IMG/VR virus record: IMGVR_UViG_3300038428_000573 | Coordinates: 1 to 43,314 of that record | Source: a virus | Reading direction: 5' to 3' (one strand) | DNA: 43,314 bases | Part shown: piece by piece, positions 3,528 through 43,304 of the stretch | How positions within the stretch are numbered: the stretch's first letter is position 1 | Layout of the letters: each line of letters begins with the position of its first letter | Notes under the pieces: generated by a model | Database searches by the model: none | Told to the model about the DNA's origin: nothing | What the model saw: only the letters and a program-made list of their open reading frames with translations | Program-made: the position numbers and the translations under genes

Positions 3528-6500
3528 TTAGTGAAACACCGTGTTACCGCTCAACTTTACCGCGCCGCTTACGGTCACACTCGGACCAGCGGCAGAAACC
3601 AGCGTTGTGAAGCTCAGAATGCTCCCGCAGCCCTGCCCCGCCGAGTTGGTCGCACAAGCCTGATAATAATAGCCCGTGTTCGGACTCAACGCCGTACATC
3701 CGCCGCTTCCCAGCGTAACCGTAAACGGTGAACTCGTTCCCCCGGCGGCGCACAGCGTGCCGGGAGGCGAAGACAACCCGTAGTAGACTCCCTCGCTCGT
3801 CACCGATGCCCCGCCATTGCTCGTTACGGTACCCCCGGTAGTTCCGCCTGACGAGGTGACACCTGAGACCGTCGTGGTCGTCACCGTGGGCACTACGACG
3901 CCGCCAACCTGCGAGACGGCTACCGCCCCGCCGGTGCTCTCAAAGTAGATCGTGTTGTCACCGGAATTGACCGTGAACGGAGATCCCGTTACCGCGCTGC
4001 CGCCCACCGTGACGTTGTACGAGGCCGGCGCGAACCCCGCGAGAAGATACTGCGCCGTACCGCTGTGCGTGCTCGTGAAGCTCGCGCCGGTCAATAAAAC
4101 GCCCTGGCGCGCAAACATCGCCACCCGCGGATAGCCGCTGTCTGCAATCTGCTGTGCCGCACAGTTTCCTCCGGTCCCTGAACATGTCAGCGCGGTGAGC
4201 GTCGGCATGGTTCCGGTGCCGTTGACCGGCTGGTGAACCACGATCTCCTCGAAGCTGGTTGCGGAAGTATTGCAGGTCCCGCTCGAACCCTGGCAGGAGT
4301 AGAGACGGTTGGTGAGGCCGGTGGGGATGTTGTGCCCGGTGTACGTGTTGCCCTGATTGATCAGCGTTCCTGCCGCGCCCGGATAGATGAAAGTCGAATT
4401 CAGTTGGGAACTTGCCTGCGTGTCGCTGACTGTATTTCCCGAAAAGTTGATTACCGAGGCCGGCGTCCCGCATGTTCCGAGGGAACTGGAACCCTGACCG
4501 GGAACCCAGGCGCACAGCCCGTACTGCCACAGCGCTGCAATGGTCGTTGCCGCTCCCGTCGCTACGTCGTCATAAACCACAAAGTAATCCTGATAGGAAG
4601 GCTTCTTGAAGTGCATGATGTGCCGCTGCACCCGGACCGGAGCGCTCGTGATGTTATTTGGATTGTAGACATTCTTCATGTCCGTCATCACGTACATGTA
4701 CCGGTTCGAACTGTCTCCGGTCGGATCGGTCGAAGCCCAGCGCAGGATCGGTGCGTTGCAACCGCCGTATGTGCCGCCGTAAGAGCGAGACCCGCCGCCC
4801 CCGCTTCCGTTGCTGCAATACACATCATAAGATGGGGTGGGCCAGTTTTCATATGTGGTTCCCTGGGCCCAGTTCGCTCCCGCGCCCAGTTCGATCATGT
4901 TCATCTGTTCGGGGCTGTTCGTATGATCCGTTTGCGCTCCGGTGTCGTCGGCCAGCAGAAACGCACTGTTACGGTAGATACGAAAATCCCCCCAGTTGCC
5001 CATGCCGTCAGATGTATCGCCGGAACTGTGGTCTGACCCGTTGGTCCATCCCGCCTCCAGCATCGCCACGTCGTCCGTTGATGACCATCCCGAACGGGTC
5101 AGGACTTGTGACCATGTCTGGTTCGGGTAGCAGGTTAGTCCGAGACTGACGCAGGTTGAGTATTCTGTGTCATTGAAAAGGTATTGCGTAGAAAAACCGG
5201 TAATGTTCGTCTGCGTAGCCGCCGGGTCCATAAAGATATAAGCGTAGACGGTCGGTTCGGACCAGCTTGTGCTCGATCCCATACTCGAAGCAACATAGTC
5301 GCCGCGCCTTGTCATCAGATAGTAGTTGAGATATGGAGTGCTGGGGTCTGTGCTTTGAATCCCGGCAATCGTATACAGTGTCTCAATTCCGCCCGATCCG
5401 GTTCCCCACTTGTTTGCGTCGGCCTGTTGGAACGGGATCACATCGTAAGTGCTGCCCTGCACCGAATCCGGTAACATCCCCATGAACTCGAAAGGAATTT
5501 CCCGCGTCAAATACTGGCCACCGAGGTTCGGTCCGCTGATAACGGACTTCTGGATCATCTCATACACCTGATGCTTGAACCGATGCGTGCGTGCGTTGGA
5601 GTAGGCGTTACCGGACGAACTAAACCCAGTGTCCGCCGAGAGATAAAATCCGTACTGATTCGCGTAGTACCAGTTGTATGCCTGCTCAAACAGCGTGACG
5701 GCACGGGGGTCGTCGTCGGCCAAAGCGTCACCAATGGCTAACTCGCCAATAATACCGGTCAGGTTCAGGTTCAAATCAGGAGCAAGATCCCCGCCGCCGC
5801 TGTTATAATTTCCCACATAGTTTGGCGCAATCGGCGGGCTGGCCGAGTGATGCTTCATGAACCAGACGATGCCGCAGTTTCCGGTCGTCCATGGCGGCGA
5901 ATAGATAAGCGGAAACGAGAGTCCTGACGGGATGTTGACGGAATTGCTGACCGTAAATGTCGTCGAGTTGGTGATCCCGGTTACGACAGTGGCAGGGGAC
6001 CACTGACTTTGAAAGCCTGGACCCACGGTGCTGGTAGTGTTGAAGATTACGTATCCGACTCCGATCTGAGATGTCGTCCCGCCGGTAATGGTCACCGTCT
6101 GGCTGGAGCCGCTTGTCGAAAGAGTTCCCGTTCCCTGGGTGACTGACTGGGGTGTACAGGCTGTCGTGTCTATTCCACCCTGCGAAGCCGTCCAGTCGTT
6201 CAGCATATAGTTGGCAAATGTTTGCCGTTGCCCGGTCGTCAGTTGACTGCGAATGATGGAATACGCCTGGGCATAGGCTATGATGTACTGCCGAACATAG
6301 TCAGTATCGTTGGTGCGCTCGCCGGCGGAGACCGGGCCGCAGTAGTTGCTGCCGGTCGGACATGCCGCGCTGTTCCCCACGATGCGGATGGCATTTTCGA
6401 TGCCGTACTCGGCGCAGGCCAGGTAGCCATTCGGATCGATGGGCGACTGGCTCGGGCCGCCCTGTGCCCACCACATAAGGGCGCACATGAGAGTGTTGTT

Positions 6501-27401: not shown

Positions 27402-27677
27402 CTACAGGTCGCCATGCGGTTTCGCCTCGCGCGTGATCGACCACACCATGTCCACGGCTTTGCCGTGCGCGAAGTTGATCGACAACTTTCCCGCGTGCCC
27501 GAGCTGGTGGATGGTTTCGAGCACATCGGCCATACGGGCGGCGGGCAGGCGGACTTCCTGCACGAGCTTCGCGGAAGGTACCGCGCCGGCCAGACGGGAC
27601 AGGGAGTGTCCGTTCAGCAGGCTGCCGGTGCTGCCGGTGCTATCTGCTTTTGGACCGCGACCGTTTCCGTTTTCCAT
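27402..27677 (-). CDS. Small protein of unknown function (91 aa)
   Basis: No family is recognised. Residues 1-25 are Gly/Ser/Asn-rich. The remainder is an alpha/beta domain (LVQEVRLPAARMADVLETIH, then KLSINFAHGKAVDMVWSITR). That pattern could be a small nucleic-acid- or protein-binding fold. AGGGCGG lies about ten bases before the ATG at 27677. Its first 38 bases overlap the extended tail of the amber-interrupted upstream frame, so the start may rather be coupled to read-through of that gene. Confidence 0.55.
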   Translation of the reverse strand: MENGNGRGPKADSTGSTGSLLNGHSLSRLAGAVPSAKLVQEVRLPAARMADVLETIHQLGHAGKLSINFAHGKAVDMVWSITREAKPHGDL

Positions 27678-27825
27678 GGTAACTGCCGCCCTGCGACTTC
27701 TCCTTACGCTTTTCCGACAGCATGATCGCGACGGCCTACTTACGGTTCTTAACCTTCGGCCCGTGTTTGCTGCCGGAATGCAGCCGCCCGGCCTTGTATT
27801 CGTGCATTACCTGTGATGACGGCAT
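27640..27825 (-). pseudogene. DUF6496-like small protein interrupted by an in-frame amber codon
   Basis: From ATG 27825 (GGGGG five bases upstream) the frame reads HEYKAGRLHSGSKHGP, then KVKNRK and TAG at 27736-27738. After the TAG the same frame continues AVAIMLSEKRKEKSQ and a basic KRKRSRSKSR tail to a second stop at 27640. In DUF6496-type phage proteins, as I recall them, this block is K-x-x-K-Q-A-[IV]-A-I-x-LSEAR, so the TAG stands where Gln (CAG) is usual. The product is either 29 aa, a 61-aa amber read-through form, or a broken gene. Several window genes end in TAG, so genome-wide recoding is unlikely. The function of the family is unknown; it often lies near head genes. Confidence 0.65.
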
Positions 27826-27849
27826 ATCAGCCCCCGTGTTTCCTGTCAT

Positions 27850-30066
27850 CTATTGCCGCGAAGTCCTGGTCGTGCTGTCCCCGCCGCCCTTCTGCTCTAT
27901 TTTAGGGCTTGCCTGAAACGTCTGCGGATGCCCGCGTCCGCGCCCGCCCTGCCCGCCTTTACCTCCGCCGGTTGCCTGCGCAACCCGTGCCATAATCTCC
28001 AGCTGCGCGGTGTAACGCTCCACCTCTGTACGCGCCTCCCGCATCCCGCCTGCGCCGTCGGGCACCAGACATGGCCCAAAGTCTTTGATATCCAGTATCT
28101 CCCGCGCCTGCGTCCACCAGGACAACGGGAAACCGAGTTTTAACGCCTGCATCAGCATCAGCTTACGGGTTGTACTGTTGAAATCGTGCAGGCTGTACGG
28201 GGTGACGCTGAAAGTGAAATTACGCGCGTGCCACCGGGCGCGCTCAAACTGCGCCACAGCCATGGAAGGCATGCGAACGCCGGTACCATCCGATCCGGCG
28301 TTTGGCTGATAGTTCCAGGTGCCCCCCGGCCCCTGCGTCATTTCCAGCCATTTGCCTTTTGCCTGCGGATCTTCCGTTAACGGCACCAGCGTGCCGGGTT
28401 CGTAGTCGAAATCCTCTTCGGTAACGCCGTCCGCCCCCAGCATCTGCATACGCCGTTTGGCCGTGGCGAACTGGAACCAGTCCGATTTCCACAATTCGCC
28501 CAGCATACGAATGCCTTCTTCCATGTTGCGGGACTGATCTTTCGGCAATGCGCCCATAGATTCGAGCAGGCGCTGCGCGGTGTCGCCGGAAGGGACCTGC
28601 CTGGCGCGCGCCATCGCCTGTGTGTCGGCAAGACCCATCTGCTCTTTAAGAATTTCGGGAAGGATCTTCGCCGCAGTCTCTATAATCGCCGGGTTGGTAT
28701 CGTACCAGTCGCGCGGCATCATGGGAGTCCACTGGCCGGCAGCGGGGTTGAGGTTCATATCGAGCCCCGTGCGCAGACCGGGAATACGAGGGTTGGCTGT
28801 TTGCAGCAGGCTCATCGCGGTGCTGTTGCGGTCGAAGAACGCGGGCGGATTCAGACGGCAATTCATCTGGTCGCCGACGCCGCGCCAAAGCTCGATCATC
28901 AGTTTTTCGATTGACTGCCCATACCGGGTTACCGGGAAGCCCAGAAAATTCCATGCCCAGTCGTCGGCGCGGAACTGCACAATGGGCACACGGCCGTCCC
29001 AGCGGTAGGACGACTGGTGCTCCGGCGCCGGGTTCACCACGCAGGTGTCGGTGCAAATGATCAGGCGGCGGTTCGGGTAGATCAGACAATCTTCCCGGCG
29101 CGCCTGCCGACGCTCCGGCACGCCACCCTGCAACATACGTCCGGTCGGGATGTCCTGCCCGACAAACGGAACCGTGTAGCTCCACGACGTGCCCCACTGG
29201 CCGTCGGGGCCGCAGATATTCAGCGGATGCCCGGTTTCGTTAACGCTGTCGTCATCTACATAGATGTAATAAACGTCTACGTCATCCCAGGTGTTGGTCT
29301 GTTCCGGCTGACGGGCGCCCTGCGAAAATCGTTTCAGTACCGCCGTCGCATACTTTACCGACTGCGCGATCACCATGCCGCGTCCGGCGGTGTTGACACG
29401 GGCGGCTTTGATATTGTCGCGCTGCAACGGGAACATCCGCCACACCTGGTGTACCGGCATCCGTTTACGCAGCCCGACCGCGTAGGCGCCCTGAACGGAC
29501 AGTGACGGCGGAAGCCCCAGAGGGATTACATCCAGAGGTCCGTAAGCGTCCCAGACGATGTCTCCCTCGCCGCGGTAGTAGTAGTTCGGATCGTAACGCG
29601 GGCCTATATAGCCGGTGCCGCCGACGCAGGCCCACTGCCAGGCGCGGCGCAGCGCACGGTCGGCAAAAGTAAGGTTTTGCCAGCACAGAAAGCTGTTATT
29701 AAGGATCTGATTTTGTTCACGGTACTGTTCGGCTTCCGATTTGAACGACGGGATCATGCGCAGGTTGGTCTGCGCGGCAACGATTTCGCGGGTATTACGC
29801 GCCGTAGCCTCTGTCCGTACATTAGACAGCGACTGCACATCGGTGACGAGGAATTCGCCGTTGATAATGTCCATACCGTCGCTGATGTAATTGTAAGCGC
29901 TTTGTAATCTTAGATACGATCGACCGTCAGCAAGCATCTGCTGTGTCCAGGCAAACAGGTCCGACGGGTCGCATGCCCGCCATTCCTGCCGCGAACGGTC
30001 GTGTTCAAAGGGCTGCGGGCACAGGTAGGCGGTGTCTACAGGACTGTAACCGGGGTGACGGTTCAC
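27850..30066 (-). CDS. Portal protein (738 aa)
   Basis: Large portal proteins of short-tailed phages are about 700 residues, and this one has the usual layout. An N-terminal helical part (SYLRLQSAYNYISDGMDII) precedes an Asn/Gln-rich wing, a Trp/Pro-rich middle (RADDWAWNFLGFPVTRYGQS) and long C-terminal crown helices (RRMQMLGADGVTEEDF). A disordered Gly/Gln tail ends it. It follows the terminase and small proteins and precedes scaffold and capsid. The start codon is GTG at 30066. A degenerate copy of the palindromic operator (30069-30080) lies directly before it, and the ribosome binding site is only a GGGG stretch about 13 bases upstream. The stop is TAG. Confidence 0.8.
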   Translation of the reverse strand: MNRHPGYSPVDTAYLCPQPFEHDRSRQEWRACDPSDLFAWTQQMLADGRSYLRLQSAYNYISDGMDIINGEFLVTDVQSLSNVRTEATARNTREIVAAQTNLRMIPSFKSEAEQYREQNQILNNSFLCWQNLTFADRALRRAWQWACVGGTGYIGPRYDPNYYYRGEGDIVWDAYGPLDVIPLGLPPSLSVQGAYAVGLRKRMPVHQVWRMFPLQRDNIKAARVNTAGRGMVIAQSVKYATAVLKRFSQGARQPEQTNTWDDVDVYYIYVDDDSVNETGHPLNICGPDGQWGTSWSYTVPFVGQDIPTGRMLQGGVPERRQARREDCLIYPNRRLIICTDTCVVNPAPEHQSSYRWDGRVPIVQFRADDWAWNFLGFPVTRYGQSIEKLMIELWRGVGDQMNCRLNPPAFFDRNSTAMSLLQTANPRIPGLRTGLDMNLNPAAGQWTPMMPRDWYDTNPAIIETAAKILPEILKEQMGLADTQAMARARQVPSGDTAQRLLESMGALPKDQSRNMEEGIRMLGELWKSDWFQFATAKRRMQMLGADGVTEEDFDYEPGTLVPLTEDPQAKGKWLEMTQGPGGTWNYQPNAGSDGTGVRMPSMAVAQFERARWHARNFTFSVTPYSLHDFNSTTRKLMLMQALKLGFPLSWWTQAREILDIKDFGPCLVPDGAGGMREARTEVERYTAQLEIMARVAQATGGGKGGQGGRGRGHPQTFQASPKIEQKGGGDSTTRTSRQ

Positions 30067-30068
30067 AG

Positions 30069-30080
30069 TGTAAGTCTACC
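30069..30080. promoter_or_regulatory. Degenerate operator-like site before the portal gene
   Basis: TGTAAGTCTACC matches the palindrome TGTAGAGTCTACA with one base deleted and the last base changed. It spans the gap between the previous stop (30076) and the GTG start of the portal at 30066. Taken alone it would not be called; it is listed because it occupies the same kind of position as copies 1 to 3. Confidence 0.25.
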
Positions 30081-30465
30081 CCTTGCCGTAGTTCGGGAAC
30101 AACCCGCGCATAGCGGTGCCGCCCTCGCGTTCGTAGTGAAAACCGATCACGTCGCGCTGCTGCGGGGGCGTGAGCGCATTCCATACGAACTTCGGCACAG
30201 CGATGTAAGTCCAGCGTTCGCCGCCCGAGCGCGTGTAGTAACCGATGGCGTCGATCACCCGAATGGACGTTTGCACCGGGTCGCCGAGCAGCTTTGCGGT
30301 GAAATACGGTGACGGCGATCCGTCCGGCAGAGGCGGAAACTGCGTTCCGACTGCGTAATCGACGCCGATTGCAAGGCCCGCTTCATGCGCGATATCGGTT
30401 GTAAACGCGCAGGGGTTGTAATTTTCATCCGTCCTGAAACTCATCGCGCTCTTGTCGCTTTCCAT
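30076..30465 (-). CDS. Conserved-looking phage protein of unknown function (129 aa)
   Basis: The sequence opens with RTDENYNPCAFTTDIAHEAGL, a pattern that recurs in small phage proteins near portal genes. It then has a globular alpha/beta middle (AVPKFVWNALTPPQQRD) and ends NYGKG before TAG. No enzymatic motif is seen. The ATG at 30465 is preceded by AAGGA at seven bases. An internal ATG at 30444 overlaps the previous stop as ATGA and is the alternative start. Confidence 0.6.
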   Translation of the reverse strand: MESDKSAMSFRTDENYNPCAFTTDIAHEAGLAIGVDYAVGTQFPPLPDGSPSPYFTAKLLGDPVQTSIRVIDAIGYYTRSGGERWTYIAVPKFVWNALTPPQQRDVIGFHYEREGGTAMRGLFPNYGKG

Positions 30466-41302: not shown

Positions 41303-41996
41303 ACACAACCTCGCGGTAGCCGCGTTCTGCTCAACGGAGCAAAACAGCTTTAGGCTTTCCAACATACTGATCGCCCCGGAGTACACCGCGGCGACCGATG
41401 GTATAAAGCTCGCGCGGATTGCAGCCGTGCCCGAGCTGAAAGCCGAATCGTTCCCGGTGCCCGGTAACGGCGAAGCAACCGCGACCGACATATTTCCGCA
41501 CCTGCTGCTGCCCGCCGGCGACGCAAAAATGCTGGCCGGGGCGATACCCGCCAAAAACACTATCCCCGTGCTTGCGTGCGCCGCCGTTACGCAGTCGCCG
41601 GACGGGTTCGCGCTTGCCGTAAGCGATGGTACTAACAGCACTGTTGTCAAATGCGCGGAAGCGAACGAAACCGGCAACCGCTTCCCGGACATCGATCGCG
41701 TAATATCCGACCCGCGCAATGCCGCGTTCGCCTGCAGCTTCGCGGTCGAACAATTGTACGAGGTATGCGCACTGCTCAAAAAGGTGACCGATGCCGGTAC
41801 GAACAAACCCGTACGCGAGGTGACCGTGTACTTTGAAACGCCGAAACGCGCAGGCAGCGACAGCATTGCGTACAGACCGGCCATGTTCAAAGCCGAAACG
41901 GAAGACGGACAGGATGTAACCGTAGCGCTCATGGGTTGCAGTACAGACGTATGCAACGGTTTCTGGAAGGCGCGGTTACCGCAGAAAAGCCAATGA
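41292..41996 (+). CDS. Sliding-clamp-like protein (234 aa)
   Basis: The pattern fits a DNA polymerase beta-clamp (DnaN-like) domain. AATDGIKLARIAAVPE matches the ATDGHRLA region. FPDIDRVISD matches the FPDYERVIP region. DVTVALMGC stands where clamps have a VTALVMPM-type end. At 234 residues it is shorter than bacterial DnaN (about 366) and would carry two of the three clamp domains, as in some phage clamps. No polymerase or clamp loader is in the window; it may use the host's. The ATG at 41292 has AAAGGA at six bases. Confidence 0.55.
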   Translation: MLNKHNLAVAAFCSTEQNSFRLSNILIAPEYTAATDGIKLARIAAVPELKAESFPVPGNGEATATDIFPHLLLPAGDAKMLAGAIPAKNTIPVLACAAVTQSPDGFALAVSDGTNSTVVKCAEANETGNRFPDIDRVISDPRNAAFACSFAVEQLYEVCALLKKVTDAGTNKPVREVTVYFETPKRAGSDSIAYRPAMFKAETEDGQDVTVALMGCSTDVCNGFWKARLPQKSQ

Positions 41997-42628
41997 CAAC
42001 CGCGACTGCGAATGCCGTGACAACCGTGACCGCCACGCCTGCGGCCACCGATCTTCCGGCCCGCTGTATCGCCGCAGCGCTGACCGGCCTGTCGCCGTCC
42101 ACGCAGCGCAGTTACAAGGCACAGATCGCCGGTTACATGCGCGCCGGCAATGCAACGCTCGACCGCGAAACCGTGCAACGGCATTTACGGTCGCTCGCCG
42201 CGCAGGGTAAAGGCGCTGCAACGCTGAACCAGGCGCTGGCGGCGCTCAAACGGCTGGCAGGCGAAGCCGCCGACCTCGGGTGGATCGCACAAACAACCGC
42301 AGCACAAATAGAGCGTATCCGCGCCAGGCCCGTGCGCGGCACAAAAACGGGTTGCTGGCTCAATGCGGAGCAGGCTTACGCGCTGCTGACGGCGCCGGAT
42401 GGCAGCACTTTACAGGGCAAACGCGACCGCGCGGTGCTGGCGTTGCTGGTGGGTTGCGGCCTGCGCAGGAGCGAGGCTTGCGCGCTTACCACCGATCACA
42501 TTGTCACCCGCAGCGGCCGTATGCTGATAGCCAATCTGACCGGCAAGGGCGGCCGCACGCGCACAATCGCAGTGCCCGTCTGGACGGCGGAAATACTAAC
42601 CGAATGGATGAAGGAGCTTGAAAGATGA
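41993..42628 (+). CDS. Truncated tyrosine recombinase (211 aa)
   Basis: Residues about 21-110 form an N-terminal SAM-like core-binding domain (LSPSTQRSYKAQIAGYMRAG, then TLNQALAALKRLAGEAADLG). The catalytic domain begins normally: GCGLRRSEACAL carries the first catalytic Arg (R158) and LTGKGGRTRTIAVP the beta-hairpin Lys (K185). It then stops after TEWMKELER. The H-x-x-R box, the second His/Trp and the Tyr nucleophile are missing, so it cannot act alone as an integrase. The last 62 bases before the end belong to a direct repeat. The ATG at 41993 overlaps the clamp-like stop (ATGA). Confidence 0.7.
   Translation: MTTATANAVTTVTATPAATDLPARCIAAALTGLSPSTQRSYKAQIAGYMRAGNATLDRETVQRHLRSLAAQGKGAATLNQALAALKRLAGEAADLGWIAQTTAAQIERIRARPVRGTKTGCWLNAEQAYALLTAPDGSTLQGKRDRAVLALLVGCGLRRSEACALTTDHIVTRSGRMLIANLTGKGGRTRTIAVPVWTAEILTEWMKELER
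42551..42612 (+). repeat. 62-bp direct repeat, copy A (recombinase 3' end)
   Basis: These 62 bases are identical to 43222-43283. Here they encode GRTRTIAVPVWTAEILTEWM near the end of the truncated recombinase. The two copies diverge abruptly at both borders. They are 671 bases apart. Confidence 0.95.
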
Positions 42629-43072: not shown

Positions 43073-43270
43073 ATGTTGACGCGACGCGATGTTGTTTTAC
43101 TTGTGGAATTGTTCGAACGCATTCTGCAGGTTCGCGAAACGGCGATCCGGTCCGGCCCGTCATACGATTACGCGCAGGCGCGTGAAGACGCTATCGGCGA
43201 GGTGCTGCACGGCGCGGCCCGGGCCGCACGCGCACAATCGCAGTGCCCGTCTGGACGGCGGAAATACTAA
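43073..43270 (+). CDS. Small protein whose end is supplied by the direct repeat (65 aa)
   Basis: AAAGGAGA lies about eight bases before the ATG at 43073. Residues 1-50 look like a normal helical protein (MLTRRDVVLLVELFERILQV, then DYAQAREDAIGEVLHGA). The final 15 (ARAQSQCPSGRRKY) are encoded by copy B of the 62-bp repeat, in a frame different from the recombinase. The original C terminus was therefore probably replaced when the repeat arrived. Function is unknown. Confidence 0.5.
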   Translation: MLTRRDVVLLVELFERILQVRETAIRSGPSYDYAQAREDAIGEVLHGAARAARAQSQCPSGRRKY

Positions 43271-43283
43271 CCGAATGGATGAA
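43222..43283 (+). repeat. 62-bp direct repeat, copy B
   Basis: This is the second copy of the repeat at 42551-42612. Read in the recombinase frame, it continues past the repeat as NEIKDINQ and a stop at 43308, overlapping the ATG at 43305. Copy A likewise ends with a stop overlapping the next ATG. Copy B thus looks like the tail of a second recombinase version. Confidence 0.95.
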
Positions 43284-43304
43284 TGAAATTAAGGACATAA
43301 ACCA

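Follow-up and report, generated by a model that had tools for sequence, protein, structure and literature searches.

Does a TAG codon that falls exactly on a conserved glutamine position of a short phage gene reflect a changed genetic code, readthrough, suppression by the host, or simply a gene that has been broken? This question is raised by a locus in an uncultivated virus (IMG/VR record IMGVR_UViG_3300038428_000573), from which we analyzed a stretch of 43,314 nucleotides, referred to here as the window. The frame in question lies on the minus strand (27825..27640) and reads MPSSQVMHEYKAGRLHSGSKHGPKVKNRK-TAG-AVAIMLSEKRKEKSQGGSYHGKRKRSRSKSR-TAG, with 60 sense codons, an inner TAG, and a terminal TAG. 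A sequence-only reading of the window had put an amber codon at 27738, and this placement is correct, as the inner TAG occupies 27738..27736. It is preceded by 29 codons (27739..27825), starting from the ATG at 27825, and followed by another 31 (27643..27735) that cover a second conserved helix and a basic tail. Directly upstream of the ATG is the sequence GGGGGCT, which is plausibly the ribosome-binding site. When read through, the first 47 codons match the Pfam family DUF6496 (PF20106) with 44 bits (E 2.9e-11; cut-off 24), and a family search of the genome found DUF6496 at the same place with 37.8 bits and one TAG inside the match. The profile cut-off is thus passed by the read-through frame, and an uninterrupted core frame is absent, with the TAG standing at codon 30. 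Our literature search found no paper naming DUF6496.

To place this gene among its relatives, we used the major capsid protein, which identified 30 loci, two being the same virus and the rest sharing 65-88% identity in the capsid protein. A DUF6496 gene is found in the portal-capsid region of 14 diverged relatives, and the CAG form that the sequence-only reading had proposed to look for is present, together with an open frame, in all of them (14/14). The motif it had given for relatives (NRK-Q-AVAI-x-LSE) also proved right, as the glutamine is invariant across the 12 aligned relative copies and encoded by CAA or CAG in 134 of 135 scored copies. Moreover, the segment following the TAG (AVAIMLSEKRKE) gave a gap-free alignment to 12 relatives, and its KRKRSRSKSR tail is alignable to those of L003 and L005. 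By these alignments, the segment after the stop is homologous to that of the relatives rather than a product of chance, which bears out the earlier impression of a coding-like basic tail; the gene-bearing relatives do have this downstream extension, the lack of which would have spoken against that impression. We then have the wider family, where the motif in its CAA/CAG form occurs in at least 120 viral contigs and the glutamine codon in 137 distinct collected domains is CAA in 70, CAG in 64, and TAG in one, though the CAA/CAG set was selected by that codon and its counts show rarity only jointly with the separate TAG scan. This latter scan, run over 2.9 million viral contigs, returned the present virus twice and one chance match outside the DUF6496 family. 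A stop inside the core was seen in just one of the 137 distinct domains, with the other stops lying at normal C-terminal ends. Within the virus-wide scan, the TAG form is limited to this virus, for which no near DNA match of the window was found among named phages.

One wrong base would be enough to create such a codon, and so an artefact of sequencing or assembly has to be weighed. We consider this highly improbable, since an identical TAG is carried by two contigs from other metagenome assemblies, which means that the codon is not the product of a single faulty assembly. In fact, IMG/VR 3300037993_001113 (63,318 nt) is 100% identical to the window over 14,685 nt and IMG/VR 3300018013_000334 (6,533 nt) over 6,533 nt, the TAG being included in both. 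Over the whole 43.3 kb, the window and the 63.3-kb record have 2 base differences. The three TAG records may stem from one local population, and they do not show how far the TAG has spread. Here, we also noticed that the ends of the 63.3-kb record share a 132-nt repeat with one mismatch, because of which the genome in this record is probably complete, whether circular or permuted, and we treated it as near complete.

A code with TAG as glutamine is used by some crAss-like and other gut phages, and a TAG sitting exactly at a glutamine position is what this code would produce. Yet genes commonly end in TAG in this virus and in its relatives, and the type of stop found at a given gene end changes from one genome to another. 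Among 55 crude gene calls, the ends are TGA in 21, TAA in 19, and TAG in 15, with terminase and portal belonging to the TAG group, while portal, in this virus and its relatives taken together, ends in TAG in 14 cases, TAA in 6, and TGA in 5, and the stops of other genes vary as well. In this group, TAG therefore serves as a regular stop. Were it reassigned, TAG would be avoided as a gene end and would interrupt further conserved genes; here, it is not avoided, and no convincing second case of a stop-interrupted conserved gene was found in the ~21 kb with relatives, by a strict filter that also misses the DUF6496 TAG near its gene end. Moreover, ARAGORN and Rfam both returned no tRNA for the window and none for the 63.3-kb record, and specifically no suppressor tRNA with a CUA anticodon for the latter. 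The Rfam tRNA model likewise gave no match in 24 related records, and Pfam recognized no translation factor among 9 other proteins of the 63.3-kb record. The phage-borne suppressor that the sequence-only reading had entertained thus fails to appear, and we regard a phage code with TAG as glutamine as extremely improbable.

Counting against a recent breakage is that the in-frame open stretches behind TAG-ended genes in this genome are longer than those behind TAA- or TGA-ended ones (p about 0.003, post hoc), and that the gene next to a TAG-ended one is often in the same frame (63.3-kb record, L154-L157). By the same measure, no such trend is present in the relatives (p 0.79), and because the gene calls are crude, we regard these long open stretches as chance.

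Programmed readthrough, one form of the amber readthrough put forward from the sequence, would call for a stop that is conserved in relatives, whereas the site is CAG in 14 of 14 and its TAG form is unique among viral contigs. From the TAG onward, the RNA is not more stably folded than its shuffled versions (z -0.44, for pseudoknot-free folding), and so the region downstream has no unusual structure either. Recoding, phage-borne suppression, and programmed readthrough are not supported. Alternatively, the host could naturally encode a tRNA that suppresses amber codons, or the stop could have a leaky context, in which case some full-length DUF6496 protein would be made and the TAG would be nearly neutral. 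In keeping with this, the distal codons are conserved, with 0 nonsynonymous changes relative to L004 and L026, and the TAG is kept in all three records. However, the phage has no tRNA, the fold past the stop is unremarkable, and a young mutation accounts equally well for the lack of decay. Moreover, efficient UAG reading would extend essential proteins, because TAG ends the terminase, portal, and other genes. We consider such host suppression possible but improbable, and none of the observations speaks for it alone. Less probable again, and indeed quite doubtful, is a naturally UAG-suppressing host bacterium in which the phage makes both truncated and full-length DUF6496 protein; when we looked for a host by searching genome contigs with the capsid protein, no related protein turned up.

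The age of the stop can be gauged from the codons beyond it. When compared with L004, the distal 12 codons have 7 synonymous and 0 nonsynonymous differences, and the divergence from L004 at synonymous sites amounts to 60-86%. In simulations of unconstrained change, the probability that all 12 codons keep residues seen in relatives is 0.05 at 0.12 substitutions per site. No decay is seen after the stop as yet, and neutral decay is bounded at about 0.12 substitutions per site. Because neutral drift beyond about this value is improbable, the stop appears to be young relative to the synonymous divergence from L004, or else the distal part is still translated. This lack of decay counts to some extent against a recent breakage, as readthrough would explain it too.

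The interrupted gene sits between portal and the next head-region gene. Portal (27850..30066, minus strand) has its own TAG stop at 27852..27850 and shares its frame with the DUF6496 gene, and the following gene (27402..27677, minus strand), which is conserved in relatives, starts inside the DUF6496 frame, at its distal end. In L027, there is no DUF6496 gene at this site, and the next gene follows 13 nt after portal, while in L008 a different small gene is found at its place. No detectable DUF6496 copy was found in five near-full-length relatives (G011, G016, G018, G020, and G021, each > 54 kb). This absence, replacement, and non-detection suggest that phages of this group can do without the gene. 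We also observed that, in L006, L008, and L027, the interval from portal to the homologue of the 27677..27402 gene holds differing small genes or none, and since the content of the site differs between relatives, the interval is a candidate hotspot for small accessory genes. A separate observation is that the gene at 30465..30076, portal, and the DUF6496 gene share one reading frame (27640-30465), with TAG codons and short gaps between them. A readthrough fusion of portal and DUF6496 was considered and dropped, as the frames differ in most relatives and stop types vary.

Elsewhere in this virus, we noticed a split tyrosine integrase, with an N-terminal part that ends early (window 41936-42628). 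Two copies of a 65-nt stretch of this part, 98.5% identical (42551-42615 and 43222-43286, ~671 nt apart), flank a 144-codon ORF. The C-terminal catalytic part is located further on (L156:5658-5942), and between the integrase parts is a low-complexity array (L156 about 5965-6265, outside the window) whose frames read GLLGLLALL or CSDCSGCSDCS. Another protein (L155:5649-7076) has a uracil-DNA-glycosylase domain joined to a 3'-5' exonuclease domain of the DNA polymerase A type.

As for the protein, an AlphaFold model of an intact relative (mean pLDDT 76) has predicted helices at residues 4-12 and 28-43, the second of which would be taken away by a stop at codon 30. The 29-residue fragment is thus predicted to keep the first short helix and to miss nearly all of the second (about 28-43) along with the basic tail, because of which the gene product would be lost or greatly impaired. 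It could be argued instead that the gene has been re-cut and not broken, with the 29-residue product, or one restarted at the ATG of AVAIM, being the functional form. The first helix region is indeed complete before the stop, and this ATG is only a few codons past it, but such a split occurs in none of the relatives, and several residues of the second helix past the glutamine are invariant; we judge this to be very unlikely.

In all likelihood, then, we are looking at a recent amber nonsense mutation in a dispensable accessory DUF6496 gene. A single CAG to TAG transition would have occurred in this small gene between portal and the next head-region gene, with translation most likely starting at 27825 and stopping at 27738 to give a 29-residue fragment, and with the function of the gene product presumably lost or much reduced in a host that would not read UAG efficiently. 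A recent nonsense mutation explains all of the observations with the fewest assumptions, and among the options of readthrough, suppressor, and recent breakage that had been left side by side by the sequence-only reading, recent breakage finds support, while the phage-borne suppressor and programmed readthrough do not. The locus thus offers a clear case of gene loss observed at an early stage, in a phage known only from uncultivated material. It also advises caution, in that a single in-frame TAG at a glutamine is not evidence of recoding where TAG regularly closes genes and a suppressor tRNA is absent.

Several known systems invite comparison. Intact DUF6496 genes of related phages, for example those of L004, L007, and L028, resemble the one described here in coming directly after portal and in having an MPSS or MPSE start, the core, and the basic tail, though they differ in that their codon 30 is CAG and their frame is open. 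The A1 protein of Q-beta is a programmed readthrough extension of an RNA phage, and as in that type the frame here is open past the stop; unlike it, the stop is not conserved, the relatives all having a sense codon, and there is no special RNA structure. TAG-recoded phages with suppressor tRNAs include phAss-1, which is reported to have TAG in 41 ORFs (PMC10607447), and the zeta crAss-like phages (PMC12386605). Like these, the present virus has a gene with an internal TAG, which in this case falls on a glutamine position, but unlike them it shows this in one gene only, carries no tRNA, and uses TAG as an ordinary gene end. Overall, ordinary recent breakage fits the evidence better than a changed genetic code.
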